Of a stretch of 64,000 nt of DNA, positions 744 through 25,690 are shown piece after piece (position 1 is the first letter of the stretch; each line of letters begins with the position of its first letter). The stretch covers positions 4,386,697 through 4,450,696 of the forward strand of contig JABAKD010000011.1 in the NCBI GenBank assembly GCA_012845835.1, written 5' to 3'. The position numbers and the translations under genes were made by a program. Origin of the DNA: Undaria pinnatifida. Lineage: Eukaryota; Sar; Phaeophyceae; Laminariales; Alariaceae. The notes below the pieces were generated by a model. The model saw only the letters and a program-made list of their open reading frames with translations, did not search any database and was not told where the DNA came from.

Positions 744-987
744 ATGTCAACCGCGTTGATCAGCCTTGCTGCCTCGATTGCGATGGCAGCGTCCTTTCTC
801 CTTCTATTATTAATAGCCAGCGCTGTGAATGCGACCACCATATTAGCGGCGACATTCGACGGCGGGGTTGTGATAGGGACTGACTCCCGCACCAGCCAAG
901 GCAGCTTCGTGGTGAACCGCCTCTCAGACAAGATCGCCCCGGTGTACCCTTCCGGCATATTTCTGGCTCGCTCGGGCAACACTGCGG
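744..987 (+). CDS. Proteasome beta-1 exon 1: hydrophobic leader and N-terminal strands
   Basis: This exon encodes a 30-residue leader followed by 51 residues of the mature enzyme, starting [20 protein letters not shown]. The leader has a short hydroxylated/Ala start, a run of five Leu plus Ile, then ASAVNA directly before Thr1. The donor is GCG-G|GTATGC at 987/988 (phase 1). ATG 744 is preferred because it gives a leader of normal signal-peptide length; ATG 783 gives 17 residues and ATG 636 gives 66. The alternative is an unseen upstream intron ending in the TTAATAG at about 807-816, which would remove the hydrophobic part but keep Ala at -1. Confidence 0.85.
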
Positions 988-3900
988 GTATGCATAGATG
1001 TTTGCTTGCTGTCTGTTCGGGTATTGCAGGGTGAACAGCAGTAATCAGGACCGAAAATGGTTAAAACAGGAGAATATTGTTGTGTACCGTATTTTCATTT
1101 TTTTTTAACATTGTATAGGACCAAGGCTACGGTAGGGTGGTTACCCCCATTTTCACTGGTGTGTTTGAGCCACTCGCACGAGTAGCTCTGTACCGTACGG
1201 ATGAAGATGGTGTAGGAACTTGGTTTGCCGCAGCTTAGATCACCTTTGCATTGCGGATTGATTTCGTCAATGTAAAACATAAAGAAAACGTAAGATTGCA
1301 TAGGAACAAAGGGGTTACTCGCGCAAGTGACCCCTAGCCACTGAAATTAAAGGCCCAAAAGGGGACCCCCCTACCGTAGCCTAGGTCATAGATATAATTA
1401 CATTTGTCCTCGAAAAATTTTAAAACCTTATTCACTTGGTTAATGGGACCTGCTCCGCTCTCAGCGCTCCCACTTGGAAAACGCCTGCCTAAACCCCCCT
1501 CTCGGAGAACCTTCCCGGCATTCTTCGCGTCCCTTACTTTCTTCGCTTTCTTCGTTTCCTTTTTTCCCGTTTCTCTTTTTATTTTCTTCATTCCGTAACT
1601 TTATCCAACGTATGATCTACGACTCTACGACGCATCTACGGCGCAAAGTCGTGAGATGTTGAAGTTGACTGCCGGATTTTTAGTGTTCTACGAGTAGGCA
1701 CCGACTTTCAGCTCCCTACGCTGGCCACCTGTCGCCGTAGCGCTTCCCCACCACTTTCAGCTTTACAATACAACTCGGAGGGCGAGATAGTACATACCGG
1801 TACTACTACACCAGGTTTGTACGTACCATATAGATATAATTACATTTGTCCTCGAAATTTTTTTAAACCTTATTCACTTGGTTAATGGGACCTGCTCCGC
1901 TCTCAGCGCTCCCACTTGGAAAACGCCTGCCTAAACCCCCCTCTCGGAGAACCTTCCCGGCATTCTTCGCGTTCCTTCCTTTCTTCGCTTTCTTCGTTTC
2001 CTTTTTTCCCGTTTCTCTTTTTATTTTCTTCATTCCGTAACTTTATCCAACGTATGATCTACGACTCTACGACGCATCTACGGCGCAAAGTCGTGAGATG
2101 TTGAAGTTGACTGCCGGCTTTTTAGTGTTCTACGAGTAGGCACCGACTTTCAGCTCCCTACGCTGGCCACCTGTCGCCGTAGCGCTTCCCCACCACTTTA
2201 CAACTCGGAGGGCGAGATAGTACATACCGGTACTACTACACCAGGTTTGTACGTACCATCAGATACTACGCTGTTGGATCACATGCACGCCCAGCTCAGA
2301 TCAATCCGGCTATATATGGCCCAGCGGCGCAGCGTAGCGCCGTGCGGAGCCGTTCGATATACGAAACGCCAATAGTACATACCTGTACTACTACACCAGG
2401 TTTGTACGTACCATCAGATACTACGCTGTTGGATCACATGCACGCCCAGCTCAGATCAATCCGGCTATATATGGCCCAGCAGCGCAGCGTAGCGCAGCGT
2501 AGCGCCGTGCGGAGCCGTGCGGAGCCATGCGGTGCGGTGCCGTGCCCTTCGCTGCGGTGCTGTGTCGCGGCGCTGTGTGCTTTCTTTCGAACATAGAGCA
2601 TTACCGGGTATAATGCGTGTGTTGTTGTGTACGGAGTACTACTTTTCCTCTTTTTTCTTTTTCTATAGACTATGTATTTGATATTTCACGGCCCCCTGTT
2701 TTTTCCCCCACGCAAATTACCCCCGTACTGCCGATCAGAACGTAACACCGGTAACAAAAGCACACAGCACAGCTGAGCACAACAGGGCAATTTGCTCTGC
2801 ACAAGCAGCTCTTGGCATTATCAAATCGCTGTTCGCACCAAATCGTGGGCCTCTTCTTTCTGCCCCCTTTACATAGTCTATGTTTTTAGTTGCATTCTTC
2901 CCTGCCTTGCGCGAGCGTAGCGGGCGGCGTCAGCCGCCCGCGGAGCGGAGCCCTTGTACCAGGTACGTTTTTGTATTTTTCACGTTTGTGTACATATATC
3001 GTGGGTTTTGGTTAAGACCTCGTATTATACTATAATACAGTCGACCCCGCTTTAAAGACACACCGCGTTTTTTTTTTTTGGGAGTGTCTTTAGCGCGGGG
3101 AAGTGTCTTTAGGATTCCGGGGCCACTACCTCACCATCCCCGGGGCCAATGGAGGTTTAACATATGTCAAAATACGCGCATTTGAAGCAGGAATGCGACC
3201 ACGAAACTGTGTTGCTTAAAACTACAACAAGTGATTTGAAAGGCCGCAACACTACTGCTGTAGTACACTCCAATACTTTACACATTTTGAATTTCCCTCC
3301 ACCACCGAAACGCGGGAAGGAGTGCAGCACGACCTATTGTAATGTGTACGGCAGTGCGCTGTTGTTGATACAGGCTCTTGCTGTAATGTGTACGGCAGTG
3401 CGCTGGTGTTGTTGCAGGCTTTTCTTATTGTCAAGGCGTTATCCTCACGGTGAACATCATGCCCGAGATATCGCGAACACACCTGAGACACATCAGTTCG
3501 TTGGAACTAGCTCTGATACGATACACGCAAGTTACCTGCCACATAGGGACCAAACAAACCCAGTCGACCCCTTAGAAGGACACTAGGAAACGGTCGGTAG
3601 CGCAGACCACAACATACAAAAAAATCGGGCAAATCCACCGAAAAGAGGACACCGTTCTTCCCCAAAGGTCAACACGAGGCAAAAACACAAAACAAAAATA
3701 CCAAAATTTAACTCCACGAGAAAGGCAAAAATCCCAAACTTTGACTGCCTGACACGAGTTGAGACTTTGACTGGCAAGTGGGTTCGCCACATGGCTTCAA
3801 GCCGGCAGCTGACGACCCGCCAGCAGATGGGAGGAATCTCTCCATACCCACACGCGGTAGTGCGGGCTGCAGCAGACCGCTGTCGATGTTATACAGCAGT

Positions 3901-6900
3901 GTGCTGCCCCAGCAAAAAAAATTGGGGGGGGGCCGCAAGGTAGAAAAGGTACCCCCCCCTTATTATTGTACATCTGCGGGGCACCATGTTCTGGGAAAAA
4001 AAAGTGTCGTTATAGCGGGGAGTTTCCTCAAGAAGAGTGTCTTTAAAGCGGGGACGACTGTATGGAAAATTTTTGGGCGATTATTTCTGGCGATTATTTT
4101 TTGTAGTTTTGAGGCTCCATATATAACTGCATGAGAAATAAGGGGCGTCCCTTAGTCTATGGCTTCTGATTTTTGCAAGGTGGTTTTATGTTGAATTGGT
4201 AGGTCTTGTTTTGCCGTTTGTCTTTTTTTTTTCAAATCTGGCACGTACACTGTCGCCCGCGACGTTAGGTCACCACCGCCTCTGCTGCTGGTGTGCTGCT
4301 GGTGTGCTGCTGGTGTGCTGCTGGTGCTGGTGTGCTGCTGGTGTGGTGGTTTTCATGGTGGTGGTGCTGCTGCTGTCGCTTTTGTGTGAGGACAAAGCTC
4401 TGTCTCGCACACAACGAGCGCGGTGTGTTGTCGAATTTGTGTTTGTGATTCTTTGTTGTGGGTGATGGGTGACGTGTACAGCAGACAGGTACCATACCAG
4501 GTACAGAGTAGGCAGTGGTGACATGTGATACTTGGTACGTGGTAGGTGTATCGGTCGCCCCGGTGGCGTATCAGGTTATCCTCGAGCCTGGTATAGGTCA
4601 GTTTCGTGAGTTCAAATCCCCCCGAGTGCATACTCGTATAAATTCGTGGGGACTTTTTCTTGTGCACAGATTGACTTGCGGAAAGCGCGAGAGCCTAAGT
4701 TAGCAACACTCGATGAAAAACGACGAGCAGTGGGATTGCTGAACCCTATGCGCGATCAAAATTGAAGGCAAGAACCGGGGGGGAGAAGGGACGACACCTG
4801 TGACCACGACTTGTCCGGAAGCTGGAAAGTAGGTGTGTGTGACAAAAAAGAAGAAAACAAAAAGTATCTCAAAGGCAATTTAATCCCAGTTCTGAGAGGT
4901 TGGAAGAGCTGTTATTTCTGGGCTCAGAAATCACCAGATCCGCTGATTTCTGGCCTCGATTACTTCTGAACCCAGAATTAACGATGTTTTCTGGTCCCAT
5001 AGTGGATGGTTTTTATTTTTGGCGTCGGAGATCCCTATTAAAGAGAGAAATAATCGCTCAAAATATTTCCCATATAAGTAATAGTTGGTCTAATATTCAC
5101 ACCCTGAACAATAGACAATGGCCCCTGCAATAGAAATGCAATAGAAGATATCACTTCGGAGCAGTAGCAATCGACGTCCACCGCATGTTCCGTCATGACT
5201 CGACAGCAAAAAATCCGAGCATCAGGCCTGGGCTGGACCTCCGCTGGCCTGCCACATATACAGGGAGTACACAGGAACTTGCGTACAAACACGGTGGACC
5301 CAAGTAGCCCACTGCAAAAGCTAACCCACGCTGTAACACTTCTTGTTTCATGCATACTGCATTCTACATATGTATGTCTGGTTTTGTCCCCCTCACGCGA
5401 GCTGTACAGTTTCCGTGCGCAGGACAAGGCTGAACGTCTTAGTCCTGTTGACCCTGGCATTAGCAGGGGGGTCACCGACCCGTATCCTTCACGAGGGCAC
5501 ACACCCCGAAATACGCGCGATCGAAGTATCACACGCAACTTGCAAAGCTGAGTTTTGATCAAAAAACCATTTTTGGTCGATCTCACAGCTGAAGTGTATT
5601 TTTCATTTTTTATAATATGGTGCAATGGACGGATCTATTGTCGTCGGTAAAGGCTATCGACTAGCAAATTTTTCGATCTGTTGTCGTCGGTAACTTCTAT
5701 CGATAGGTTAACTTTCCAACGTATTGGTTAGGCAGGAGTGTGCTGAAGTACCTCGGTTGAAAGCTATCGTCACCGACAATGGCTGTCGATGGATAGCTTT
5801 GCACAATCTGTAGCGGCCAGCAATGATTTTCGATAGTGACATGTCTTAAACAGTTGTGTCTGGAAATGGCTATCGATGGTCACCGTTCACAATCTATTGT
5901 GGTGGACAATGTCTATCGGTGGATGCGTTTCCAAATCTTTTGTGGCCGGCAATGGCTATCGATAGATGCGTTTCTTAGTTTATTGTGACAGGAAAAGGCT
6001 ATCGATGGTCACCGTTTACAATCTTTCGTGTTGGGCAATGCCCATCGACGGACACCACCGACTTATTTCTACTTTTTTTTCTGCACCTCCTACGATGAGC
6101 TGATGTACTGTGAATACCAGGTTCCGACACCCTTCAAGAAGCTGAGAGCTCCCACAAACAGTTGCCATATGAATACGCCTTTACGTTGCCTTTGACCCCT
6201 TCGTGATGGGGTTCGTCCTCGAGACATCCGATAGCCGGCCAAAGCCTTCATCCTCACACGCCCACAAAGCTGAGAGCTTCCACAAAGACCGGTAATACGT
6301 CTATACATGCCCATTTGCGGCGCCAGCCGCCTACGAGTAGAGACCACACCCTGGACAATAGACACATGGCCTATTGCGTCGACAATAGACTAGCAACGCT
6401 GTCTATCGATGGACATTGTCCGCAGCAATGCATTTTGGTACTTTGGGCCATGGGCGGTTGGCGTCAAGGGGTAGATTATGTATTACGTGCTTACACCCTG
6501 GGCAATAGAAATTAAATAGAACATTGCCGCTACAGTAACCAGGTAAAAATGTGTTATCAATGGACAATGTTAACGGCAATAGTCTGGTAGTGCTGTCTAT
6601 TGATAGATATTTCATTATTCGTTGTCAGGGAACTATATATGTTCTGCAATGGACACAATATACCTGTGCTGTGACAATGGAGTGACATGGCTGTCCACAA
6701 ATGGTCATTGTCCTGAACAGTAGATGTCGGGGGAGCAACCGCGATAGACATTGTTTGTCACAATGGAGTCACATGGTTGTTAATAGATGGCTGTTGTCCT
6801 GAACGATGGACGGCGGGGAAGCAAGCGCGATATATATTGTTTGTCACAATGGAGTGCCATGGCTGTCAATAGATGGCTTTGTCCTGCACAGTAGATATCG

Positions 6901-9900
6901 GGGAAGCAACCGCGATAGACATTGTTTGAACAATGGACCAAACAAGGTTTTCTACCGATAGCAATTCCCGCCTACAATAGACATGCAATTGTGTCTATCA
7001 ATAGCCATGGACACCCACGATAGACTATTGGGCGTATTTCCACAATATACTATTGTCTAAACCTATTGCATATCGTGGAGTGGTGTGTATCAATGGCTGT
7101 TGTTGCCGACGGCCGACGTTTGCTAATGCCGCCAACAATAGATACCCAATGGTGTCTATCAATACCCATCGCCACTCACAATATATTATTTGGCCACCCA
7201 GAGTAGAATGTTGGGGGTGTTTCCACAAGAGACTATTGCCTTAAACCTATTGTATATCGTGGCAGTGGAATGTCGATGGTCATTGTTGACGACTGCGGTT
7301 AGTGGTATTTTGTATGTACGCTTGACGCTGAGAGGCAGTTTTTCGAATTGCGGGTGTATGCGTATTTTGTCGTGAAATTTCCACTGCTATGGACGGAAGC
7401 GTTGGTAATGATTCACGTTTGAAACCCATGGACGCTAGGCAGCAGCCCATACTTGCTTCAACAACAAATGTATTGGAAGCGGTACTTCAGAAGCACTCTC
7501 AGTCGGAAGATTTCTGCCCTTCTGCGTTGTTGGTCTTCATGTCCCAGCAGGACACCGCCGTCTATACCCGAAACTAGTGTTTCAACAATGCACTATCGTT
7601 GCTTTTCCTCAAAAGCACGAAGTCCACCACCGCACACAGCAGCAGTGAATGGCTGTCGATTGACAGCTTGCACAATCCATTGCGGCCGACAATGGCCATC
7701 TGTAGACATGTCGCGGACGCTATTGCGACCGACAGTGGCCATCGATAGACATACAGCACATTCTATTGTGGCGGCAATGGCCATTGATGGACACAGTTGA
7801 CATATAATGTCGCCGACAACGTCTATCGATGGGCACCCTCCAAAGTCGACAATATCTATCGACAGACACTTTCCACAAGGTATTGTCGATGACATCATCT
7901 ATCGATAGGCACCTTCCACAATCTATTGTCGACAACATTATCTATCGATAGACATCTTATACAATCTACTGTCGACGGCATTGTCTATCGACAGACACCT
8001 CCGACAACCTGTTGTCGACAATATGTATCGATAAACACCTTCCACAATCTATTGTTGCCGACAGTATGTATCGATAGACACCTTCCACAATCTATTGCTG
8101 CCGACAATGTCTATCGATAGACACCTTCCACAATCCATTGTCGCTGACAATGGCTGTCGATAGATTGCCCCCCTCGTCTATTGTCGACGCAATATACCAT
8201 TTGCCTATTGTCCGGGGTGTGTTTATATAGTCCTCCGTAAATATTAATAGATGCCACATGTTCTCAAACGGTTGATGTTGGGCCTCTAGTAGCACTCGTG
8301 GTACACACAGCTGAGTACGGAGTATTGGTACCTCGTACGAGTACTAATAGTGTACGAGTACTAGTAGTTGAAGATCAGTTTTTGTTTCCTTCTTTCCCCA
8401 CCTGGGGCGGATGGGGAAGAAGCTCACCACTCACCACTCATAAATTGCTTAACATCAAGTCGCCGACCCTTGATCCGAGCGTTGTGGACGAGCTCAAGCA
8501 GTGGCCCCCGTGCAGACCACTGGACGATGTCCTGTCTAGGTACGAAGTAGAGGAGGCAATCCATGCGCTGGCGAACCGAAAGGCGGTAGGGCCCGATGGT
8601 CTCCCGGCCGAGCTCCTGAAGGTCCTGGCCGACGAAGGAGAATTGGACACGCTCGGAAAGTTCCACGATATCAGCGTCGCTGTGTGGAGGAGAGGTGGCG
8701 TGCCGCAACAATGGAAAGATGCAACGATTAAGGTGCTGCACAAGAAGAAAGATAGGACGGAGTGTGGTAAGTATCGTGGCATCTCCCTCGTGGCTCACGC
8801 AGGCAAAGACCTCCTCAAAGTGATCGCGGGTCGCCTTAGTGACTACTGCGAAAAGAGAAAAAAATTGCCGGAGGAGCAGTGCGGGTTCAGACCCCAACGC
8901 TTGACGGTTGACATGATGTTCGTGGTGCGACGACTGCAGGAACTGGTGCGGAAGGACACCCCCTTGTATTTGTGCTTTATCGACCTCACCAAAGCATATG
9001 ATTCCGTCGACCGAGCCCTTCTGTGGGATACCCTTGCTCGTTTTGGCGTGCCACCGAGAATGCCCGCCGTCATCTGCCAATTCCACGACGGCATGCAAGC
9101 ATGCGTTGGTTTGGATGATGAAGAGTGCTCGGATAAGTTCAACGTGGGGCAAGGTCTCAGGCAAGGGTGCGTGCTCGCGCCACTGCTGTTCAACATGTTT
9201 TTCACGGCGGTACTGCGTATGGCCGAGAAACGCCTCCTCTCTGATGCAGCCACCACGGACAACATGGTGCAGCTCCAACGAAAGAAGGAGAAAGGGGAGA
9301 AGAAGGGCACATCACGCACAGGCAAAGTCGACGGGCGAGGGGGTAAGGAGGGGGAGGAGGTGCCGAGGTTGTTGGGAATTCTGTACGCTGACGATGCGGG
9401 CATCGTATCGCGATCATCAGAAGGGCTGGAGAGGATGTTGACGGTGATCTTGATTGCGTGCTCGGCGTTCGGGCTTACGATCTCTGACGCCGAAACCGAC
9501 ATCAAGTGCCTGCAGACTAAATGTGGGGGGAAGGTGTCGTTCACCATCAATGCAGCCGGCCAGGTATACAAACAAACGATCGAGTTTGTGTACTTGGGCG
9601 GGGCTATCAGCGCAAACAGAGAACTCAGCATCGAGATAACGCGGCGTCTTCAAAGGGCCTGGGCGCGCTTCCAACGGTACAAGATGGAAATCTATGATCG
9701 CCCGGGTGAGCGCTTACGGTTGAAGGTGCGGTTGCTGAAAGCCGAGGTGATCGAAAGACTTTTCTATGGTTGCATGACGTGGAGCCCGAACAAGCCTGAC
9801 TATGACAGGCTGCGACGGGCTCGCTCCTCCGATGCCTCGGATGGCGGAACGGAAGCGTGACGACCACACCCTATCGTACGCCGACACGCTTGCCAAGACA

Positions 9901-12900
9901 GCTTTCGAGAGCATAGAGGCGATAGTGCGCAAACGCAGGATATTGTTTGCGGGATTCGTGGCACGCACGAGGGAGGTGTGTCTGCCACAGAGGGTGATGT
10001 TTGGGGAGCTTGTTGGGGGTAATGGCTACTCAGGGGGGCAAGAGAAGGACTGGATGATGCACCTGAAGGAGGATATGTCGTCCTTTGGAATGAAGTTCGA
10101 AGGGTGGTGAAAGGCTGCCCAGAAGGCCGGCAGATGGTTTAGACGGGTAGAGGAGGGAGCAGAGTCGTTCATGCGGAAATGGCATGACGCGGAGAGATGC
10201 AGAGCTGCAGAGCGACACGAAGGCCGCGCCAGCTCCATCCACCGTCGGTATTTCTAAGCGGCCGGGGGGAGGGGGGAGGGGAAACGGGGGGAGGGGGGGG
10301 GGGGGGGGGAGGGGGGGGCGTCCTGCCCAAGAGACCGAAGTCTGGGTCTGGCCATCATCGTCTTGAAAATTTGTGGGCCTTCCAATGGCCGTCACAAGCT
10401 AGAGTAAGGCCGCCCTGACTTCTTCGCCATGTTGCATTTTGTCCCCACGCCAATGATGTACTTGATACCCTCTATGAGCCCAATGCCGTCTTAAGTCAGT
10501 TCCTAGGGTCTGAGGGTATGGTGTTTTTTCCTTTCCTTCCCTTTCTTTGCTTCCTCTTCTTGTCTTTTCTTTTCTTTCCTTTCCATTTCGCTTTTTTTTT
10601 TTTTTCCTTTCCTTTCCTTTCCTTTCCTTTCCTTTTTCCTTTCCTTTTCCTTTCCTTTCTTTCCTTTCCTTTCTTTCCTTTCCTTTCTTTCCTTTCCTTT
10701 CCTTTCCTTTCTTTCTTTCCTTTCCTTTCCTTTCCTTTCCTTTCCTTTTTTCTCCGTTTCCTTTCCTTTCCTTTCCTTTCCTTTCCTTTTCCTTTCCTTT
10801 CCTTTCCTTTCCTTTCCTTTTCCTTTCCTTTCCTTTCCTNNNNNNNNNNNNNNNNNNNNNNNNNNNNNNNNNNNNNNNNNNNNNNNNNNNNNNNNNNNNN
10901 NNNNNNNNNNNNNNNNNNNNNNNNNNNNNNNNNNNNNNNNNNNNNNNNNNNNNNNNNNNNNNNNNNNNNNNNNNNNNNNNNNNNNNNNNNNNNNNNNNNN
11001 NNNNNNNNNNNNNNNNNNNNNNNNNNNNNNNNNNNNNNNNNNNNNNNNNNNNNNNNNNNNNNNNNNNNNNNNNNNNNNNNNNNNNNNNNNNNNNNNNNNN
11101 NNNNNNNNNNNNNNNNNNNNNNNNNNNNNNNNNNNNNNNNNNNNNNNNNNNNNNNNNNNNNNNNNNNNNNNNNNNNNNNNNNNNNNNNNNNNNNNNNNNN
11201 NNNNNNNNNNNNNNNNNNNNNNNNNNNNNNNNNNNNNNNNNNNNNNNNNNNNNNNNNNNNNNNNNNNNNNNNNNNNNNNNNNNNNNNNNNNNNNNNNNNN
11301 NNNNNNNNNNNNNNNNNNNNNNNNNNNNNNNNNNNNNNNTTTCTCTTCTTTTCTTTTCTTTTCTTTTCTTTTCTTTTCTTTTCTTTGGTTTTTTCCAATT
11401 GACCTGAGTCTGACACGTAAGTATGTGCGTAGTGATAGGCACTACGTGCAATATATACGTGGCAGTCTTTTCTGGGTGGCAAGCGGCGTGGCCGGTTTTC
11501 AGGCGCGAGTAATGAGGCGTATGTACCGATATGGACCTGGCACATCGTAGGCTGACTCCCGATTTCACGTTTTTATATTTTTTTGGTGGAGGCTGAATTG
11601 CGTCAGCTATGATATACGCGTGTTCCACTTTTGGTCAGTCTGTGTTTTTTTCCCTGGGGTATTCCTCCACTCCAGAGTGACTGGAGCCTGTTCTGTGACC
11701 ACGGACTTGATTATGCGAGTTACGTGAGAACATCAACTCGCCACACACCCACGTATTTTCGTACCAGGTCATGTTGTCAACTTAACTCAATTGTATTCTC
11801 AATCCAACCCTATTTAATAGCTGGCGTATCCTTCAGTTCCCGTGGTGGGTAACGACAGCGCGTGCTGTCCTACCGGCGGTCACCGTTACTACACTAGCAG
11901 CGCAAGCTGCCGTTGACATCCGAGTCCGCTGCGCTTGTGACACGCTTACGGTGGCAGCAGAGGCAGGTGATGGCAGCAGCAGGAGGCTACGCGCATCAAT
12001 AGTAGCAGTGGGGAATAGCATCACGACTACAGCAGAGGTAAAAGTAGAAGTTCGTAGATACCACATACCACATGTTCACATACGGTGGACGTTGAGGCAA
12101 TACAGCAGTAAAAAGCAGTTGAATATCGTAGTTGGCTGCAGCATATGATACGCTTGCAGCTTCCACCAGCGGCAGAACGGCAACAGCAGGGCACGTATAG
12201 CCCCGTCAGTTGGCTGCAGCAGCAGTAGAAGTATACCAGGTACTCGTTTTTGCAGATACAGCAGCATGGAGCAGATTAGAGTCGTAGGCCTGCACCCGCT
12301 CGACGTAAAAAGTCGGCACGGTTTGCCTCCCCCACGTATGAGAGGTGCGGATGGTAACAGGCTGCACGTTGTACATTTTTGTCTTGAACGTCGAACCTCT
12401 GATACTGCAACATAGTGCTGGCAGTGCTCTCTGCGCCAAGTCAGTCAGTCCGTCAGTTTATGCGTGTAGCAAGTGCTACATAACCTGGTACCTGGTGCAG
12501 TAGCAGTACACGTCCTTCCAGTGCTCACCTGGCAGCCACTACCAAGGTCTTGGGATCGCTTTATTGAGCGGGCGGCGTCAGCCGCAAAACACTTGTAATA
12601 TGCGAGTTTCTCATTTTGACGACGCCGAAAAAAAGGGATCCTTTTATTAATTGCAGACATGGCCGTCTCCCAATCCATGCCTTTTATCGTCACCACGTAA
12701 AGTCTACGGACACGCCTGCTCCCATTCCGTGCCTTGAAACGCAACAAATAATCAACTCGGCACAAATGCGAGTTGCTAACGAAAACCGCGCCCAAAAATA
12801 AGGACCTTCGGAGATGACTGTTACTCCTGCCGACCGACAACCACATCGACACACACAAGCTGAGGACGCAGCTATAGATACATATCTGTATATTTTTTTC

Positions 12901-15900
12901 TCCATCCCATGTACTATCCTCGCATTGCTCTCGCGCTCCCTCTCAGTAGTAACTCAGATCCGAGGTCACATAGCGGACCCTCCTCCCCCCTCCCCACTAC
13001 GGTATGCGCCTTCATACTCATCGCGAGAATAAGACACACAACCCGTAATACGCGCGATCGGAGTATCACACACAGCTTGCAAAGATGAGTTTCGACAAAA
13101 TATTCGATCTCACGGCTGGAGTGTATTTTCATTTTTTGTAATAATTCAGCATTTTCTTCCCTCGTCGACTCGCGTCGAATTGTAAACGAATGTCCTGCTG
13201 CGCCAAGTCCCTGGCGGCGACCACGCATTCCCAATACCCTACGCAGTCTCTAGCGACAGCTGTGATATCTTAGTACCATGGTATTGCATCATTATCCTGC
13301 TGTCCTCTTGGTCTTCTGGCAGACATCTAGTACTTGGGTATATGGCGGCGTTGTCGAAGCCAGGCTCGACGCCTACCGGACGATACTAAATACAAAATAA
13401 TATTACCGAAGATCGCCTCGGGGGACAACTCACAGGCTGTTTTTCCCTATTTTTTATACCTAACAAAAAAATGCATTATTCTCCTACAGCCGACACGCCT
13501 CCCCCCAACTCCCAACCCATGCCTTGCCACGTCTCCATCTACACCTATGTACCGTCCTCTGCGGACGCGCCTATTCCCCTCCCATGCTTTAAAACTTACA
13601 ACGCCGTAATCCACCGTACCGTAACATTTAGATTCCACCCTTTTGGCCTTCTGGCAGACACCCAGTATGTGGCGGGCGTCGTGGAGGCCAAACTCGACGC
13701 CTACCGGACGCAGTTCGGGCGCGACCCAGCGGTTCGAGCGGCAGCTACGGTAACGCGAAATCTGTGCTACGCCAACAAGGGCGGGATCTCGGCGAGCTTC
13801 ATCTGCGCCGGCTGGGACGCGCGAGAGGGGAGCGCGGTTTTCGTTGTGGACAAGGTGGGGGGATAGTGTCGAGAAGGGGGGGAGGCGGGGTGGGGAGGGG
13901 TCGGGGAGGGGGGCGGGGGGGGGGGGGGGGGCAGGGAGCTAGGGGGGGGAGGAGAGGGTTGCTGAACTTGCCCCTATTTAACCCTTTTTGGGCCCAGGTA
14001 GGGGCAGGGGGGGTGGGGGGAGCTAAACGCATCCCTTTCAACCTTTTCAGGACGCAGGTATAGAGACCAACCCTCTCGCACACGGGAGCGCGGGGCAGCA
14101 CGACACAGCACGAGTTGTGTCGTGCTGCAATCGAAACCATCGCACTCTGGAAATGTTGCCGTGCACACCCACCCGCGGTATACGATACGACGGCGGCGGT
14201 GCAAAGGTAGTTCGACTGACGGCAGCAGCGTTGTCGGAAGGACCGGCGGCGCGGGAGACCAATTTTGCGAGCGTTGTCGCTCGGGTACGCACCCTGCAAT
14301 CACGGCCCGGGCTGCTCCGTGTGACCGATATGCTGCACTCGTCACTTTTTTCTCAACACATTTTCCCCTTTTTGAAGTTCCAAAGGATTTCTGAAGCACA
14401 TACATATATATTTTTTTACTGCATGTGATAGTATTCAACTCTAATTCAAAGGTTACGAAATATGTGTGTATACACTTGAATGCTTATAATATATCCAATT
14501 ATAATCGCAAGCCAGTTTGCGTCCCCGGAGCGTGTGGTCCGGTTCTAAATGTACAGGGGCTATGCCGTAGCTGTTACATTCTTGCGAATGTGGTCCACGT
14601 GTGAGTCCGAGTGGTTTTCTCCCGGAGCGTGCGGTGTAATTCTAAGAGGTTGGTATTGCTTCAGACATGACCCCCAAGCGTGGGGGCTGCGAATCAATAC
14701 AACATAAAACAGGGACCAAGCCACGACACCAAATGGGGGGCGGTGCCTCTGGTCGTAGTCGAGGGGTTTATAGAGATTTTGGTTTATGCCGACACATGGT
14801 TAGAGCAGACTCTCTCTTGTTTGGTTGTGGCGTGGAAGACACGCCGAGGTGGGTCGGTACCTGGGGTCTACACGGAGCAGAGCCCGGGACCTCTGGTGAC
14901 CTTGATGCTGTGTATAACGAGGCGGTGCTGCGGGAAGGGGGCCTACTGTAGCATCCACACAAGTCTTGTTCCAAATAGCGTATCCTCGGAGCGTCTGGCG
15001 AAGTTCTAAATTGTAAAGGGGTTTTCAAAACGTTTTGTTCCTGCAAGTATGATCCAACCCTAATTCTCCAAGAAGTTTTGGCCCCGACGACAAGTGTGAT
15101 TTTTTCCTCACCCGTAGTCGTATATTGTAAAAAAATGGTGCAGTCTCTTAACCGGTTCTATAAACTGCGAAATTTTGTCCTGTACTTCTTCCCGAGCGCT
15201 TTCCCCCCCACACATGGGTGCAGTTACAACGGGATCAAAAGGTTTTTTTTTCTACTGTTTTTTTGCCGAAAATGTGACATCCCTTATCGTACAGGGGGGT
15301 ACCCTGCTGGAGCAAACGTTCGCGATTGGTGGGTCCGGGTCACCCTTCGCCATGGGCTATTGCGACCTCTACCTTCGACCAGGTCTAGAAAGGTGGGTGC
15401 GGTGAAGTGCGGTGCGGTGCGGTGCGGTGCAGTGCCGCTCGGTGCGGTGCGGTGCGGTGCAGTGCCGCTCGGTGCGGTGCGGTGCCGTGTGGTGCGGTTC
15501 GGCACTCTTACTTTTACCGTCAAGTTACGCCTGGCCTCGAAGGACGAGAAGAAAATGACAAAAAAGAATGCCAACGAAGGGGCGGTTCGCACGCATCAGG
15601 TATATATACCAGGGGTGTGTACTCGCATGTACAACTGCACTGAGTTGTTGGAGCGTTACGGACTAGGTTAGGGCAAAGAGCGTCATGCGAAAACAACGAT
15701 GGCAGCTGCAAGCATAAACCCGAACTGTTGGCTCGTTCGTTGCCAGCGGGCACCCCCTCTCCTCCCGCCTTCTCCTCCTCGTCTTCCCCCCCCCCCCCCC
15801 CCCCCCCGCACCGCCTCTTCCCTCGCTCAACCAACAAGCCCCCCCACCCCAATTCCCATGGTTTCAAGACTTACGGCTATGATTGACAATTGAGTATACG

Positions 15901-17882
15901 ACGCGTGCAACGATAGAGGTAGCGTTTTTTTGGCTTTTTTTTTCCTGAAATGACGGGGTTTCTTGACCCAAAATCGTCGAAAAATGTCATAATTTGACTC
16001 TTGGTTTGGGTTCACCATGTTATTGTTTGGCATACCTAAGGCATGGATTTGTTTGATCATCGGGTTGCACTTTCATTTTGCTCATTTTTTTTTTTTGCCT
16101 CAAAAGGCATGAAAAAAGAAAAAAAAAGGAGCTCCTTAGCCCCTTTAGAGCCCCAACTAAATCCCCCCTATACTAACTTCAAGTAAAGGCGTTAAGTGAG
16201 GAGCCTTCGAAAAAAAAAGAAGAAAATGACAAACCTCTACCGTTGTGCCATACGCCCTCCCATCTCCATCTCCTCCCTCCGCCTACCTCTCCCAGTCCTT
16301 CCCCCACAACCCCGCCTCCTCCTTCCCCAGCTCTCAGCAGCACCCCCCTCCCTCCCTTCCTCCCACCCCGACCCTCCGAATCATTTGTCAGGTGCTACCA
16401 TTTATCACAAATATATCCGCCCACCGCCTCCCCACCCCGGCCAACGTTTTCGAGTGTCATTAATCACATGCCGCCCACCCCCCCCTGCTCTTCCCGTCCC
16501 ATGAATTTGGAGTGCCGTTTTGATCACCCGCCGCCCTCTCTAACCACCCCCACGTTTATCACCCCCTCCAGGAAGATAGGATAAGCAAAAGGTTTTGATA
16601 TGTAGTGTTTGGAAGAAGCGTGCTGAGCTTCCAAACGTTGGAGTTGTCTCTATAGAGAGTAGGAACGGTGCTCCGCCTCGAAGGGAAGGCGTGGGCAATG
16701 GTCAAATGACTTGAGCCAAGCAACAAATGAACACCCCCCCCCCCCCGCACTCTTGCCGCGTCCCTACTCCTAGTCAAACCGAGTATCACGTGTCACCCCA
16801 ACCCCTGCGGTTGCCACTTACGCCTGTGTATCTGTGTTAAGACAATCTGCATTGGAACGCCAACGATATGCGTTGCCTTGCTGTTCCCCGGTGTACTGCA
16901 TAATTGCAATAGTCGGCGTCCCCAATGTTCTAGGGGGTTAGCCCGTTTAGAGCCCCCAAACCCCTCCCTATTCTAGTTCCAAGTGATTTGTCCCCAAAAA
17001 CGGGTTTCTGGTCGGAAAGGCGTTAACCTCGTAACTTCCAAGGTCGATTTCGCGGGTTCGAGCCCCCCCGAGCGCATACATACTCGTATATATATCGGAC
17101 TCGTAGGGACCTGTTTTTTGTGCAGCAATTGGCTCGCGGAAAGTGCGAGAGCGTGGGTTAGCAAAATTCGATGAAAATTGACGAGCGCTGGGAATGCCTG
17201 AACCAACCCTTTGCGCGATAACAAGGAAGGCTCGTCTCGGGGGGGGGAAGGGGAGACGGGGCGACACCTGTGACCACGGCTTTGTCCAGAATATGGAAAG
17301 CAAAAGTGAGATTTGGAGAAAAAAAACAAGTAAGAATTGCTTACTGGTGGATAGGTCTGGCGGCTGCACAAAAAGGTTACCAATTTTAGCTACGAGAAAG
17401 TACCCATTGATCTCGCGATGCACGCAGCAGCAGCGGCCATGTATATGATGAACTGAACCAAAATATATTTTGTAAAATTATTCTAACGACGTCAGGTGCG
17501 AGTTGGACAATTTTGGGGTCGATAGTCGTCTTTGCAAGCTGCGTGATACACCGGTCGCCCGTTTTTTAGAAGTTGCTTGAACGTGTTGATCGACCAACCT
17601 GTGTGTTAATGATGTAATAGGGACGAGTGCGTGGCGCATGTTCAGAAGGCGATCGAGCTGGCCATCGCTCGGGACGGGTCTTCGGGAGGGATCATTCGAC
17701 TCTGCGTGGTGTCGTCGGCGGGGGTAGAGAGATGGACTGTCAATCCTTCGGAGCAGGCGGGGGGGGGGGAGGGGGGGGGGGGGGGCGAGGGGGGAGGGGA
17801 AGGAGGGGGGGGGGGCGCCGAGGGGGGAGGGGAAGGAGGGGCGGCGGCAGGGGCGGCGAGAAGGAGTAGAAGAAGCTCGTAA
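744..17882 (+). CDS. 20S proteasome subunit beta-1 (caspase-like), four exons
   Basis: This is a catalytic beta subunit of the 20S core; beta-1 cleaves after acidic residues. Exons 744-987, 13658-13854, 15295-15392 and 17621-17882 join with consistent phases (1, 0, 2) at GT-AG sites. Counting from Thr1 (codon 834-836), the catalytic set is present: Thr1, Asp17 and Lys33 in exon 1, the GGSGS turn (Ser129) in exon 3 and the RDGSSGG motif (Asp166, Ser169) in exon 4. The RSG motif after strand S4 carries the Arg expected in the beta-1 acidic-substrate pocket, and SGNTADTQ matches the family SGSAADTQ. The mature chain would be 236 residues, against about 205 in the human protein; the excess is a Gly-rich C-terminal tail. 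Oddities: the leader is hydrophobic and signal-peptide-like, and residue -1 is Ala where the family has Gly. The gene would be PSMB6 in human and PRE3 in yeast nomenclature. Family identity is certain; the start is less so (ATG 636, 744 or 783). Confidence 0.9.
1123..1385. mobile_element. MITE family M1, copy 1
   Basis: A 263-base element begins AAGGCTACGGTAGG and ends CCTACCGTAGCCTAGG, so its ends are inverted repeats. Inside are two near-perfect palindromes, one centred on CACTCGCACGAGT (about 1171) and one on ACTCGCGCAAGTGA (about 1324). An inverted homologous copy lies at 63420-63681. It has no coding capacity. Target duplications are not clear. Confidence 0.65.
1389..2260. repeat. Tandem duplication, period about 442 bases
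   Basis: A block beginning ATAGATATAATTACATTTG at 1389 is repeated at about 1831 with few differences, mainly a run length in CGAAA(A)TTTT and a short deletion near 2197. Both copies carry CT-rich tracts that make matching open frames, which are not taken as genes. It sits directly beside the MITE end. Confidence 0.75.
2215..2580. repeat. Nested tandem duplication with GC-rich AGCGCCGTGCGG motifs
   Basis: The segment from GTACATACCGGTACTACTAC (about 2220) to GGCCCAGCGGCGCAGCG (about 2337) is repeated from about 2372 to 2490, followed by a diverged GTGCGGAGCC and GGTGC-type microsatellite to about 2575. From 2580 to 3037 I see only unique-looking intron sequence, with one GC-rich palindrome at about 2922-2940 (GGGCGGCGTCAGCCGCCC). 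A diverged piece of that palindrome recurs near 12570. Confidence 0.6.
3038..4060. mobile_element. Non-autonomous pogo/Tc1-mariner-like DNA element
   Basis: The ends are 24-base inverted repeats, CAGTCGACCCCGCTTTAAAG at the left and the complement CTTTAAAGCGGGGACGACTG at the right, flanked by TA on both sides (3036-3037, 4061-4062). TA target sites and CAGT-type termini are typical of pogo-like Tc1/mariner elements. Sub-terminal copies of GTGTCTTTA and GTGTCGTTATAGCGGGG make extra hairpins at each end. The 1,023-base interior has no transposase-like frame, so the element would need help in trans. Confidence 0.65.
4280..4375. repeat. CTGCTGGTGTG minisatellite
   Basis: Short tandem copies of TGCTGCTGGTG with GGT-rich extension. 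It is part of the sequence between the pogo-like element and the SINE (4061-4550), in which nothing else is recognised. Confidence 0.6.
4551..4850 (+). mobile_element. tRNA-derived SINE family S1, copy 1
   Basis: A polymerase III A box (TGGCGTATCAGG, about 4565) and B box (GAGTTCAAATCC, about 4609) lie 44 bases apart, as in a tRNA. They are followed by a conserved body with GACTTGCGGAAAGCGCGAGA and CACCTGTGACCACG, and an A-rich tail near 4843-4862. Four related copies occur at about 17027, 47360 (-), 47650 (-) and 60987. The 300 bases after it (4863-5145) hold no recognised feature. Confidence 0.75.
5147..5612. repeat. Dispersed repeat family R1, long copy 1
   Basis: About 460 bases match 30245-30705 closely, including CATCAGGCCTGGGCTG, GCTGGCCTGCCACATATACA and a 3' part with GATCGAAGTATCACACGCAA then CGATCTCACAGCTGAAGTG. 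Shorter pieces of the 3' part occur at about 13035, 19745 (inverted), 36940, 38815 and 39075 (inverted). The class is unknown: no terminal repeats or coding domain are visible. Confidence 0.65.
5628..8165. repeat. Diverged palindrome-cored minisatellite (43-base unit)
   Basis: The best-preserved end (about 7830-8165) has a unit of about 43 bases: CACCTTCC, then the palindrome ACAATCTATTGT, a short CGACAATG linker, then the palindrome TCTATCGATAGA. Units of 40-43 bases follow one another with 10-25% differences. Further left the same words recur at irregular spacing. It lies wholly in proteasome intron 1, and the open frames in it are by-products of its composition. Confidence 0.75.
8430..10256 (+). 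pseudogene. Dead non-LTR retrotransposon (LINE) reverse transcriptase
   Basis: The frame from about 8436 encodes a LINE-type reverse transcriptase: the [14 protein letters not shown] fingers motif, [24 protein letters not shown] (first catalytic Asp), [14 protein letters not shown] and LYADDAG (the YADD box, intact). The thumb and downstream region follow, with GCMTWSP and LRRA. At about 9825 the frame breaks and continues at +1 ([41 protein letters not shown]). It then meets a TGA at 10108-10110 and ends near 10256. There is no upstream endonuclease, so the copy is 5' truncated. A second fragment of the same family is at about 48121-48185. The clade is not decided. It lies in intron 1 in the sense orientation of the host gene. 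Confidence 0.85.
10262..10318. repeat. Poly-G tract
   Basis: A GGGGGA/poly-G run of more than 50 bases follows the LINE. Similar G- or C-runs occur at about 13905-13955, 15787-15808, 35617-36440, 36657-36695 and 53946-53968. They could form quadruplexes and are probable length-variation points. Confidence 0.7.
10524..11388. repeat. CCTTT/TTTTC microsatellite with a 500-base assembly gap
   Basis: CCTTT repeats fill 10524-10839, then N from 10840 to 11339 (exactly 500, so an arbitrary gap size), then TTTTC repeats to about 11388. The true length is unknown. Frames through it are artefacts. Confidence 0.95.
11389..13322. other. Rest of intron 1: no gene seen
   Basis: Mixed intron sequence with imperfect CAG-type trinucleotides (about 11950-12240). 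A copy of the R1 3' part lies at about 13025-13145 (ATACGCGCGATCGGAGTATC, CGATCTCACGGCTGGAGTG). No coding region or RNA gene is supported. Confidence 0.5.
13323..13385 (+). pseudogene. Decayed duplicate of the 5' end of proteasome exon 2
   Basis: The acceptor-like TCTTGGTCTTCTGGCAG and the next 60 bases match the true exon 2 boundary at 13640-13717. The shared text includes GAAGCCAGGCTCGACGCCTA against GAGGCCAAACTCGACGCCTA. In the phase required by exon 1, the third codon is TAG, so this copy cannot be used. It lies 335 bases upstream of the real exon. Confidence 0.75.
13658..13854 (+). CDS. Proteasome beta-1 exon 2
   Basis: The acceptor is CTGGCAG|ACACCC and the donor GACAAG|GTGGGG. With the G left by exon 1 the join reads ...[21 protein letters not shown], and it ends in [18 protein letters not shown]. 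It matches the helix and strand segment of the human protein that contains CYRY and AGWD. It lies 12,670 bases downstream of exon 1. Confidence 0.9.
13855..15294. other. Proteasome intron 2
   Basis: It begins with a G-rich tract (13855-13960). Three diverged copies of a CCGGAGCGTGTGG...TTCTAAATGTA motif lie at about 14525, 14620 and 14990. Nothing in the open frames of 14047-14951 resembles a known protein. Confidence 0.5.
15295..15392 (+). CDS. Proteasome beta-1 exon 3
   Basis: The acceptor is CGTACAG|GGGGGT and the donor GAAAG|GTGGGT (phase 2). It encodes [20 protein letters not shown] followed by [12 protein letters not shown]. This corresponds to the family segment [16 protein letters not shown] and carries Ser129. 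The downstream intron begins inside a GGTGC microsatellite. Confidence 0.9.
15400..15500. repeat. GGTGC pentanucleotide microsatellite
   Basis: Tandem GGTGC with GCCGCTC interruptions starts at the exon 3 donor. A shorter related stretch is at about 2505-2560. Confidence 0.8.
15900..16065. repeat. Dispersed repeat family R2, copy 1
   Basis: The text ACGATAGAGGTAGC...GACGGGGTTTCTTGACCCAA and ACCTAAGGCATGG matches copies at 18060-18235 and 55945-56125, with a short piece at 56130-56180. The copies share a conserved left part and a right part ending near TTTCTGGGAGAG. The class is unknown. Confidence 0.6.
16138..16197. mobile_element. Mini-MITE M2 (TTAA type), short copy
   Basis: A degraded 60-base copy: TTAGCCCCTTTAGAGCCCC at the left and AAAGGCGTTAAG at the right. 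See the intact copy at 18249-18338. Confidence 0.4.
16580..16790. repeat. Dispersed repeat R3, copy 1
   Basis: GGAACGGTGCTCCGCCTCGA...GGTCAAATGACTTGAG...AACAAATGA, next to a poly-C run. It has an inverted homologue at about 44530-44720. The class is unknown. The pyrimidine-rich stretch 16200-16560 before it shows no gene. Confidence 0.55.
16938..17026. mobile_element. Mini-MITE M2 (TTAA type), copy 2
   Basis: Left end TTAGCCCGTTTAGAGCCCCC and right end GGAAAGGCGTTAAC, with the shared interior CCAAGTGATTTGTCCCCAAA. It abuts the head of SINE copy 2. Confidence 0.55.
17027..17330 (+). mobile_element. tRNA-derived SINE S1, copy 2 (diverged)
   Basis: The B box GGGTTCGAGCC is clear at about 17054. 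The A-box side is replaced or worn (AACCTCGTAACTTCCAAGG). The body matches S1: GCGGAAAGTGCGAGAG, GACGAGCGCTGGGAATGC and CACCTGTGACCACGG. The most diverged of the five copies. Confidence 0.6.
17621..17882 (+). CDS. Proteasome beta-1 exon 4 with Gly-rich tail
   Basis: The acceptor is ATGTAATAG|GGACGAG, completing the split Arg codon. It encodes [20 protein letters not shown] then [20 protein letters not shown], aligning with the family C-terminal helix and the RDGSSGG motif. After VNPSEQA the frame runs into a (GGGGA)-type microsatellite and continues as about 36 residues of Gly, Glu, Ala and finally RRSRRSS before TAA at 17880-17882. Either the protein really has this tail, or another splice site near 17755 leads to an exon not recognised here. 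Confidence 0.8.
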
Positions 17883-22163: not shown

Positions 22164-22821
22164 TCACGTTGAATTTGCTGTTGATATCCAACAGGTTCCT
22201 GAAGCGATTTTGTTCAGGTGCTTTGTGCCGATGTCGGCAGGGTTGATGTCGGTCGTGATGTAGTGGATGGAGATCCTTCCCTCCGACACGAGCTCTCGGA
22301 TGAAGAAGAAGCGCAGCGCGATGTGCTTCGTCCTCGAGCTGAAGGAGCGGTTTCCCAGCGCGTGCAGAGTCGCTGTGTTGTCGCAGTACAACGGCACTTT
22401 CGCGACGTCCTTGCCGAACCCTAGCTCTGTCAGCATGTTCGAGCAGAACACTGTTTTTTTCATCGCTAACGCCAACGCGACCAGCTCCGCCTTGATGGTC
22501 GACATGGCAGTCAGACCTTGTAGTCCCGACTTGAAGCCAATCGGCGCATCGCACAGCATCGACAATACTTACTTAGTAGCATGAGGTGGACTTTCCGTTG
22601 TCCGGGTTGTCGGCCCAGTTGGAGTCCGAAAAGACTGCAAGCTTGAAGCCTCCCCTCTTGTACGTAATGCTGAAGCCGGTTGTCCCCGCGAGGTAGCGAA
22701 GAGTGTTCTTCGCCGTCACCATGTGGATCTTGCTGGGTTTCGCCATCGGGCGAGCCAGTTGACCAACGGCATACATGATGTCGTACCTTAACACTTGGGA
22801 AACATACATCAGGCACCCCAC
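22164..22821 (-). pseudogene. Copia RNase H domain, frameshifted
   Basis: VSQVLRYDIMYAVGQLARPM and FSDSNWADNPDNGKSTS are in one frame, and MSTIKAELVALALAMK, LYCDNTATLHALGNR and HIALRFFFIRELV in another. The frame changes near 22570. Together they are the Copia RNase H with its usual C-terminal tail. Confidence 0.8.
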
Positions 22822-24420
22822 GATGCCTTGGTAGCGCTTGTTTCTTCCTCGTCCAGCAGAGTTTCGTCAGGCTGCTGGTTGGAGAGTTCGGGACCGTAAC
22901 CCGGCGTGTTGGTCGGCTTGCATTCCGACATCCCGAACCTCTCCAGGATGGACTTGGAGTAAGCCTTTTGAGAGATCGTGAGAGTGCCACGTTCAAGGTT
23001 TCGATTTATCGCCATGCCCAAGACGAGCGACACCGCTCCCATGTCGGTCATCTTGAAACGCTGCTTCAACTTCTCTTTCACCATCGCCATGGCGTTAGAG
23101 TTGTTGCTGGCCAGAAGGAGATAGTCCACGTAGAGGGTCAAGTAGATCCGAACACCGTCGTGATCGTACAAGTAGACACACGTGTCGGACTGGAGCGGAA
23201 CGAAGGTGATCTCGACAAGGGCGGGATCGATGGTGTTGAACCAGTTCCCGGGGCTTTGGGCCAGCCCGTAGAGGCCCTTCTCTAGCTGCATCACTAGCTC
23301 ACCTCCATCCTTGTCCTTGACATCGAAGCCAGGCGGCTGCTCGACGAACACCAACTCCTGGATATCCGCGTACAGGAAGGCAGTTGAGACGTCCATCTGG
23401 TGTAGAAGCAGGCCGACGTGCACGGCTATGCAGCATATGATCCGCACGCTCTGAATCATGCACACCGGGGCGTAGATGCTGTCAGAGTCAAGGCCAGGAA
23501 CTTGGTTCTAACTATGAGCCACTACACGAGCTATGAAGGAGCCGTCCGCCTTGCGCGTGAACGCCTATTTCAAATTGATTCGCTTCCGTCCAGCGGGAAC
23601 GGCAGAGCACGGAACAAGCTTGTAAACTTGACGATATTTAAGACTCGCGATCTCGCGTTCTGCTGCTGCGTTCCACTGGGCGGCTTCGGGCGTGGCCCGC
23701 GCTTCCTTGATTGTCCGTGGAACATTCGGTTGCGTTGTTCCCACAGCGTACGCGTATTCCGTGAAGCCGAATGTGCCGTCCCTGTGGGCGACGTCGGGAA
23801 ACTCCCCCTTCAAGGTAAACGCGTAGGAGAGGCGACGAAGCGCGTTTATGGTCTTTGCAGTGGGTACGCTCGAAGCAGACCTGGTGACTGCAGGCGTCGG
23901 CGCGGAACCTCGTCCACCACGAGACGAACCGCGTCCACGCACAAAACCACCCTGCGGCGCAGTACCAGACGGAGCAGAACCAGCGGGCGATGAACCAAGC
24001 GGCGGCGCCGGACCAGGTGACGATCCAGGAGAAGACGCATCGCTGACCGGCACCGGGGGAATGACTTCCCCCGGCGGAGCAGGGCTATCTTCCTCAGGCG
24101 TACCACCAGAAGTCCCAGGCGCATCGTTGGCAGGAGTAGATCCAGCAAGTGCAAGTCCAAGATCACGGTTGGTTGTCTCATAAATTTGTTCGAGAAGCCC
24201 AATCGCAGACAAATCCCCAACGACATCCCCAACGGCACGTTCAGGAGAGAGTGAATCAGCCGAGTGGTTGGAAGTGTAGTTTCGCACGTATCTTAGCATG
24301 TCGTCGTGGTCGTCGTACGTGAACTCCCCGTCGTCAAAACCGCGCGAGTTTAACGAGGGCGCGACAGAAGGCGTCTCAATAAAGATAACATTTTGACTCA
24401 CCCGCACACGTCGCGTCTCA
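22809..24420 (-). pseudogene. Copia reverse transcriptase, active site mutated
   Basis: The N-terminal part (PRTIKEARATPEAAQWNAAA, LVPCSAVPAGRKRINLK) ends in a frame break near 23565. The core follows with MDVSTAFLYADIQE (first Asp), KGLYGLAQSPGNWF and LTLYVDYLLLASNN. The YVDD box is therefore YVDY: the second active-site Asp is Tyr. A low-complexity Pro/Gly-rich linker precedes the RT, a common spacer in Copia polyproteins. Confidence 0.85.
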
Positions 24421-24423
24421 GAG

Positions 24424-25080
24424 TTAGTTGTAGATCCGGTAGGACTTGCTTTCCTCGCTGAATCCAACGAGCCGGCCTTCCCAAGCACGATGATCCAGCT
24501 TATTGGTGTGGACCTCTTCGTGCACGAACGCCCGGGACCCGATCACCCGGAGATGGCCGAGATAGGCACCCTTGCCGTAGAGCGCCTTGCACGGCGTCCC
24601 GTTTTGCAAAGCTGCGTGAGGAGTCCGGTTGCTCAGGTAAACGGCCGTTTTCATCAGCTCCCCCCAAAGAAAGTTCGGAAGTGTTGAGTCGGCGAGAAAA
24701 CAGCGCACGATGTTCAAAATCGTCCGACCCGCACGCTCGTTCGCTCCGATCTGCTGAGGGGTGTTCGGAGAGGCAAACTCCAGCTTGATGCCGACGTCTT
24801 GACAGTACTGACGGAACTCCGCGCTCGTGAATTCTGTGCCGCGGTCCCAGCGGAGGGTATGGATGCGCTCGCCGGTAAGAATCACGGTCTCCTTGACGAA
24901 CACCGCAAGGGCATCCACAGAGCAGGTCTTGTCCTTCATGAGCACCACCTCCTTCCACTCGGTTTGCTGGTCAGCGAACTTGGCGGCGTATTTGAACCCG
25001 CCCAGAGATTTAGGCGTGAAGGGGCCGAGGGTGTCGATGGATACGAGCTGGAAAGGACGTAGAACAATGTAGGTGGCCTG
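24424..25080 (-). pseudogene. Copia integrase core
   Basis: The D,D,E residues are recognisable: SIDTLGPFTPKSL at about 25035, LRWDRGTEFTSAEF, and SPNTPQQIGANERAGRT with the catalytic Glu. NRTPHAALQNGTPCKALYGK and WEGRLVGFSEESKSYRIYN follow, as in Copia integrases. The core itself is uninterrupted, but it is separated from the upstream domain by a stop. Confidence 0.85.
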
Positions 25081-25095
25081 CTCGGGGTGAGGTTG

Positions 25096-25690
25096 TTATG
25101 CGCTCTTCCCGAGAGGGCAGGTACTACAGTTCTTAAGGTCGCCGGTGTAGTCGACACCGCTAGCCGGCTCCTTCCTCAGGACGTCAAAGCTCTTGTGGTT
25201 GGTGTGTCCTATGCGTCGGTGCCACATCTCAGCGGACTCCGACTTTAAGGCAAGGCCGTCAGGGGCTCGCCCGAGGACCATCTGGCCCCCGGCGCCACCC
25301 CCAAGTTTCACCTCGATGGAGCACATGAGTTTTCCGGTCGCATCGTCCACCCCACAGGTTTGCATCGAGATAACCACGTCCCCCGACTCCAATCTGGGGT
25401 TGGCCGGATGAAACAACGTCGCCACTCCCTTCTGCATCGCCGCGGTCACGGAGAAGAGGTTGGTGCCCAAGTCCGGCACCAAAACGACGCGAAAGGAGAC
25501 GCGCCGGTCATTTCCGTTGTCGTCCGTGACGGCGCCGAAGATAGTTCCCGTTGTTACGCCCTTGAGGAGATGCTGGCCGGCGGCGACGATCGTGTGAGGG
25601 GTCTTCGATGTCGCACATGTGGGCCCGCACTCCTGGTGTAAGCGCAGGGTCGAGGTAGTTGTTGGTCGCTCCGCGAAAAGGAGCAAGCGA
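25096..25690 (-). pseudogene. Copia protease remnant and GAG-pre-integrase domain
   Basis: The protease site, normally a DSGAT...HM motif, reads NYLDPALTPGVRAHM, so the catalytic DSG triplet is gone. After a frameshift come VVLVPDLGTNLFSV, typical of the end of Copia protease, and the GAG-pre-integrase text MWHRRIGHTNHKSFDVL ending NCSTCPLGKSA. A TAA then interrupts the polyprotein at about 25096. Confidence 0.75.

Follow-up and report, generated by a model that had tools for sequence, protein, structure and literature searches.

A putative signal peptide abutting the catalytic threonine of a divergent proteasome beta-1 subunit in the brown alga Undaria pinnatifida

In the genome of Undaria pinnatifida, a brown alga in the Ochrophyta, a gene for a proteasome beta-1 subunit (hereafter beta-1') carries a hydrophobic leader that ends directly at the catalytic threonine (Thr1). 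The gene lies within a stretch of 64,000 nucleotides that was analysed as a whole and is referred to as the window. Its leader raises the question of whether a 20S core subunit is brought into the endoplasmic reticulum (ER) by a signal peptide and, if so, where such a subunit would finally reside and by which enzyme its active N-terminus would be made. A preliminary description of the locus had tentatively answered this with a leader cleaved by signal peptidase at Thr1 and with a second proteasome pool, conceivably in the remnant cytoplasm of a complex plastid. In the following, we are discussing these proposals step by step, together with the alternative readings that the same nucleotides allow.

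The gene is composed of four exons coding for 266 residues in a complete frame. The features to which the text refers are these, with positions counted from the first letter of the window:

744..987, plus strand: exon 1, comprising the leader (744..833) and the mature part (834..987)
744..833, plus strand: 30-residue leader, interpreted as a signal peptide that is cleaved off; predicted cut after 833, between Ala at -1 and Thr1
783..833, plus strand: shorter alternative leader of 17 residues from the second in-frame ATG; same predicted cleavage site
795..816, plus strand: polypyrimidine-AG stretch coding for the Leu-rich core, acceptor-like, 15 of 18 positions being pyrimidines
834..987, plus strand: mature part of exon 1, starting with Thr1 (834) and ending after one nucleotide of codon 51, with Asp17, Lys33 and Arg45 assigned by alignment
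988, plus strand: donor of exon 1, GTATGC
13658..13854, plus strand: exon 2, after an intron of 12.67 kb
15295..15392, plus strand: exon 3, with the GSGS motif
17621..17882, plus strand: exon 4, with the ARDGSSGG motif, a Gly-rich C-terminal tail and the stop codon TAA

The identity of the product as a beta-1 subunit is supported by several comparisons. Among the best 60 of 212 PDB matches, PSMB6 chains lead with 184 bits, and the highest-ranking chain of another type than beta-1, 7qve_p, follows at about 82 bits. Pfam assigns the protein to the Proteasome family (5.7e-40), and beta-1 is the best-matching type for all four exons upon typing against human subunits. Aligned with its human, yeast and Arabidopsis counterparts, the protein has retained Thr1, Asp17, Lys33 and Arg45 (human residue numbering) together with both motifs, GSGS and DGSSGG. 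A decayed gene is ruled out by the complete frame and the kept catalytic residues. At its C-terminus (17756-17879), the protein passes into a low-complexity tail rich in Gly and Glu, for which a G-rich repeat codes; this tail may be genuine or the product of a drifted stop codon. Scans of viral contigs with the protein and with an alignment returned no relatives.

The window copy is not the sole beta-1 gene of Undaria; this option is ruled out by an ordinary beta-1 gene located at C34:3527021-3528497, with a first exon upstream. As the frame is closed directly 5' of Thr1 in this gene, an intron must lie there, and the first exon was inferred by filtering candidate exons for those having a Met and ending in Gly or Ala, a filter which a single candidate passed. 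The resulting propeptide, MDLTTQQEYPGLKPGEVSSG, ends in Gly at -1, and its last residues, GEVSSG, are similar to the ends of the human and yeast propeptides. A second beta-1 gene with a putative Gly(-1) propeptide, for which the preliminary description had proposed to search the genome, was found. The mature part of the ordinary copy shares 63.9% identity with human beta-1 and 48.6% with the window copy. At 69 positions common to the human, yeast and Arabidopsis proteins, 23 are changed in the window copy versus one in the ordinary copy, identifying the window gene as a divergent paralogue and not as the housekeeping beta-1. With PSMB6/PRE3, including the ordinary Undaria copy, beta-1' has Thr1, Asp17, Lys33, Arg45 and DGSSGG in common; in contrast to their short polar propeptide ending in Gly, it possesses a hydrophobic leader ending in Ala.

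The leader, with its Leu-rich core and the terminal ASAVNA, had been taken to fit the signal-peptidase rule, with a cleavage site coinciding with Thr1. Both expectations were borne out when cleavage sites were scored with the von Heijne eukaryotic weight matrix, which was used in place of a trained predictor. The leader has a hydrophobic core (9-residue hydropathy of 3.03) and small residues at the decisive positions, namely Val at -3 and Ala at -1. The top cleavage site, ASAVNA/TTI (the slash denoting the cut), lies exactly at Thr1 with a score of 11.77, versus 7.30 for the runner-up, LLIASA/VNA, which is situated three residues before Thr1. Scored with the same matrix, the products of ATG 744 and ATG 783, the two starts considered in the preliminary description, are both signal-like and share the cleavage site; the start context of ATG 783 has G at -3 and G at +4, that of ATG 744 has C and T. 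For comparison, the maximum site scores of other beta-1 N-termini are 3.51 (human), 0.05 (yeast) and 0.37 (Arabidopsis).

Counted over both strands, the window contains 522 frames that start with ATG and stay open for 40 codons or more, and only two of them equal the leader in site score and hydropathy, these being the frames of beta-1' itself that start at ATG 744 and ATG 783. At a cut of 9 for the score and 2.5 for the hydropathy, three unrelated window frames also pass; with the thresholds relaxed to 3.5 and 2.0, 60 of the 522 do so, implying that weak signal-like frames are common. Lys and Arg are missing from the leader, irrespective of which ATG is used, i.e., there is no basic n-region, a feature that is common in signal peptides but not required. 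Residue -1 is Ala and not the Gly that is present in the solved human beta-1 chain and in yeast beta-1. On balance, the leader of beta-1' is very probably a true signal peptide.

The nucleotides coding for the Leu-rich core can, however, be read in a different way, namely as nothing but the polypyrimidine tract of a 3' splice site, so that an upstream exon joined after position 816 or 820 would give beta-1' a cytosolic start without a signal peptide. Translation of polypyrimidine tracts often yields Leu and Phe, and the AG at 815-816, if all plus-strand AGs in the window are ranked for their pyrimidines, belongs to the top 1.05%; with a score of 15, it exceeds the three assigned acceptors of the gene (14, 12 and 9). 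Moreover, in the ordinary Undaria beta-1 gene an intron, 2.04 kb long in the model, sits just before Thr1, and the third-position GC of the leader (0.55) is closer to that of the in-frame upstream stretch (0.53) than to that of exon 1 past Thr1 (0.75). Yet, among the candidate exons collected over 12 kb 5' of the site with three donor patterns (14 for site 816 and 18 for site 820), none looks by eye like the propeptide of a beta-1 subunit; a single one of those for site 820 is itself signal-like. Ala is retained at -1 in both models; thus, the Gly-Thr junction of the ordinary beta-1 is missing in beta-1' under either of them. As a null for intron tails, the exon from position 817 was grafted onto 861 other polypyrimidine-AG sites, which gave 186 grafts that are open with a Met 13-60 residues ahead of Thr1. 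None of these 186, and none of the 861 overall, matched the real leader; a score of 9 with a KD of 2.5 was attained in two and a score of 7 with a KD of 2.2 in four, so a signal peptide of this quality is rare in intron tails. Given, in addition, that two other divergent subunits carry signal peptides, as detailed below, a splice-site origin of the Leu-rich core is improbable, and we proceed with the leader as a signal peptide.

The question of whether beta-1' has partners of its kind was approached by a profile search with Pfam Proteasome (PF00227) over 68 contigs comprising 511,146,479 bases, with typing against human subunits. This search yielded 39 exon matches in the Undaria genome. One close and one divergent copy each are present for beta-1, beta-2, beta-3, beta-5 and alpha-5, and also for beta-6, where the gap between the close and the divergent copy is smaller (44-48% vs. 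37-44%); the two copies of beta-4 are at a similar distance. For beta-7, two weak exons were found, and alpha-1, alpha-3, alpha-6 and alpha-7 are represented by close copies only. Further divergent alpha loci, which are not firmly typed, are L010 with L011, L028, L030 and L037. PDB searches with one exon each agree with the typing of L024 as beta-2, L020 as beta-3, L025 as beta-5 and L028 as alpha-4. Ordinary copies of alpha-2 and alpha-4 were not found in the assembly by this exon-wise search, which returned divergent copies only; since such a search misses short exons, ordinary copies of both may have gone unseen, and the alpha-4 with a signal peptide is the only alpha-4 seen. These data reveal a second, divergent set of 20S subunits in Undaria beside the cytosolic one, and it is likely that the window gene encodes the caspase-like beta-1 subunit of this second Undaria pinnatifida 20S proteasome. 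As a side aspect, the divergent beta-6 occurs on two contigs (L022 at C32:22.28 Mb and L023 at C38:6.87 Mb) with equal exon scores and spacing, reflecting either a recent duplication or an assembly duplicate.

A leader in frame with the mature N-terminus can be read for five divergent subunits, i.e., beta-1', beta-2', beta-3', beta-5' and alpha-4, and three of the five (beta-1', beta-2' and alpha-4) have clear signal peptides, each of which begins at the first ATG past the preceding in-frame stop. Beta-2', the best PDB match of which is also 7qve_p, starts with MSWSLLMAVLLSAPMLTPCSA (site score 8.13), has 74 residues between the predicted cleavage and Thr1, and carries Gly at -1. Alpha-4 starts with MRALLDFLMVVLAGCPSQA, with a site scoring 8.74 that is located two residues before the YDR start; its signal peptide is found at about 159-272 of L028, with an in-frame TAG one codon 5' of the ATG. 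The leaders of beta-3' and beta-5' are ambiguous, the former having a hydrophobic stretch with a poor site (2.06) and the latter containing a hydrophobic stretch only if an upstream Met is used. On the minus strand of L020 (sense ~3885-4160), a long Arg/Ser-rich stretch is followed by the hydrophobic segment and, subsequently, by the mature start of beta-3'. The four readable ordinary leaders (beta-1, beta-2, alpha-1 and alpha-3) have site scores of -1.06 or below. Leaders on other 20S subunits, which had been suggested as a check of the initial proposal, are clear for beta-2' and the divergent alpha-4. The situation that had been named as speaking against a second pool, a single beta-1 gene in a genome whose other 20S genes lack leaders, does not apply to Undaria, where an ordinary beta-1 exists and beta-2' and alpha-4 have signal peptides.

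First exons of the remaining second copies were not found, and a scan for signal peptides on separate first exons was dropped as uninformative: upstream of six divergent or beta-4 genes, it returned five signal-like frames (two at one beta-4, three at the C52 alpha), versus four for the six ordinary genes, each of these four lying at beta-5, with six in antisense over the twelve. In L031 (sense ~5737-5780), a signal-like frame, MIHAFFFCGSFSLMLVLLFLSGTCG, with a score of 11.0 is present 1.8 kb 5' of the first matched exon of the beta-4 copy and may be there by chance.

Because divergent second copies are present and signal peptides are found on beta-1', beta-2' and alpha-4, the proposal of a second, ER-routed 20S core is well supported. 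Concerning its destination, it is relevant that Undaria, being an ochrophyte, has the four-membrane, red-derived complex plastid of that group. According to PMC5070193, plastid-bearing heterokonts have a periplastid compartment with 20S core subunits only, which are host-encoded and signal-peptide-borne, and Moog 2011, Stork 2012 and Lau 2016 are cited therein for the heterokont periplastid 20S proteasome; PMC5756292 describes periplastid 20S proteasomes without a 19S cap in diatoms. With the heterokont periplastid 20S proteasome already published, a signal-peptide-bearing second 20S set in a brown alga is of an already-known kind and expected. Shared with the heterokont system are the encoding of the second subunit set in the host nucleus and, for the three subunits with a clear leader, the predicted entry via a signal peptide. 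The cryptophyte periplastid proteasome, also covered in PMC5070193, likewise occupies what is left of the cytoplasm in a complex plastid of red-algal origin; however, it is nucleomorph-encoded, whereas the genes are nuclear in Undaria and import would be needed.

Of the initially proposed second pool, the entry into the ER is upheld by the divergent set and its signal peptides, while the location in the periplastid compartment, the remnant cytoplasm, is a probable one in analogy to the heterokont precedent. The second core might, instead, be active in the lumen of the ER or elsewhere on the secretory pathway, as a transit-like stretch is missing after the signal peptide of beta-1' and alpha-4 has merely two residues at this place. 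Such a location is opposed by the heterokont precedent and by beta-2', whose 74 residues before Thr1 offer room for a transit-like stretch; furthermore, we know of no luminal proteasome. We regard this location as very unlikely and retain the periplastid compartment as the probable destination of beta-1'.

What is unusual in Undaria is the junction between leader and mature subunit. Periplastid proteins, including the heterokont proteasomal ones, are described in the review PMC5756292 as carrying a transit-like sequence that a peptidase takes off. In beta-1', in contrast, the signal peptide abuts Thr1, leaving zero or three residues between cleavage and Thr1 depending on the site, and that of alpha-4 nearly abuts the mature start, with two residues before YDR. 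The junction of beta-1', which has Ala at -1 and could not accommodate a transit-like sequence, would depart from the described pattern.

The following course of events can be envisaged for beta-1'. The leader would direct the ribosome to the ER, and the subunit, having passed the ER, would be destined for the periplastid compartment. Signal peptidase would cut the leader at Thr1, or three residues earlier with subsequent trimming, and the cleaved beta-1' would be carried to the periplastid compartment and assembled into the second 20S core. For crossing the periplastid membrane without a transit-like sequence, the signal may be carried by the mature N-terminus or by a partner such as beta-2'. 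Given the lack of a transit-like stretch and the presence of Ala at -1, the active N-terminus could be the direct product of signal peptidase cleavage. We hold such an exposure of Thr1 to be almost as likely as not, and we tentatively suggest that the active N-terminus of beta-1' might be made in this way and not by autocatalysis, signal peptide and propeptide being one and the same. With a cut at either site, the signal peptide would take over the task of the propeptide in freeing and protecting the catalytic Thr, and, with the N-terminus being freed in the ER, cytosolic N-terminal acetylation would pose no hazard.

A true signal peptide might also be cut at ASA/VNA, with VNA being removed inside the particle by autocatalysis or an aminopeptidase. 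This would make use of the second-best site of the leader (7.30), but the Thr1 site scores higher (11.77), and autocatalysis at Ala(-1) would be a departure from the Gly(-1) of the solved human chain and of yeast beta-1; on balance, we consider this course rather unlikely. Among the papers retrieved on signal peptidase, the 20S proteasome and a threonine N-terminus, none appeared to deal with a proteasome matured by signal peptidase. To our knowledge, all known schemes of beta-1 maturation involve autocatalysis at Gly-Thr. If Thr1 were indeed released by signal peptidase, a membrane protease cutting exactly at this residue would uncouple maturation from assembly. This would be a natural way round N-terminal acetylation, from which propeptides are said to protect, going by the title of the 1999 work of Arendt and Hochstrasser. 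Together with alpha-4, it would further mean that some second-core subunits need no separate transit-like sequence on the way to their compartment, or that the core is partly built on the ER side. For kelps, a list of second-set 20S genes is gained, through which the function of the periplastid proteasome and import without a transit-like sequence become accessible.

The window also contains repeats and mobile elements. Pfam searches with ten window proteins and six upstream open reading frames detected beta-1 and domains of retroelements, besides a single weak match that stayed under its cut-off, and scans of the window with Rfam (at the gathering cut-off) and for tRNAs gave no matches. The GC content of the window is 51.2%; that of the published Undaria pinnatifida assembly is given as 50.14% in PMC7058681. 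Inside the 12.67-kb intron 1 of beta-1', an RVT_1 reverse transcriptase (9.1e-30) is coded at 8241-9860 in a frame open for 539 codons, and a gap of 500 N (10840-11339) lies amid TTTCC-type repeats. Tandem arrays with a 43-base unit rich in ATCGAT occupy 7670-8164; a further array of 43-base units lies at 5861-6056, and 6670-6937 holds an 86-base repeat. Beyond the gene, on the minus strand at 22809-26925, a Copia-type element is present in pieces, with RVT_2, an integrase core and a gag domain just below the cut-off.
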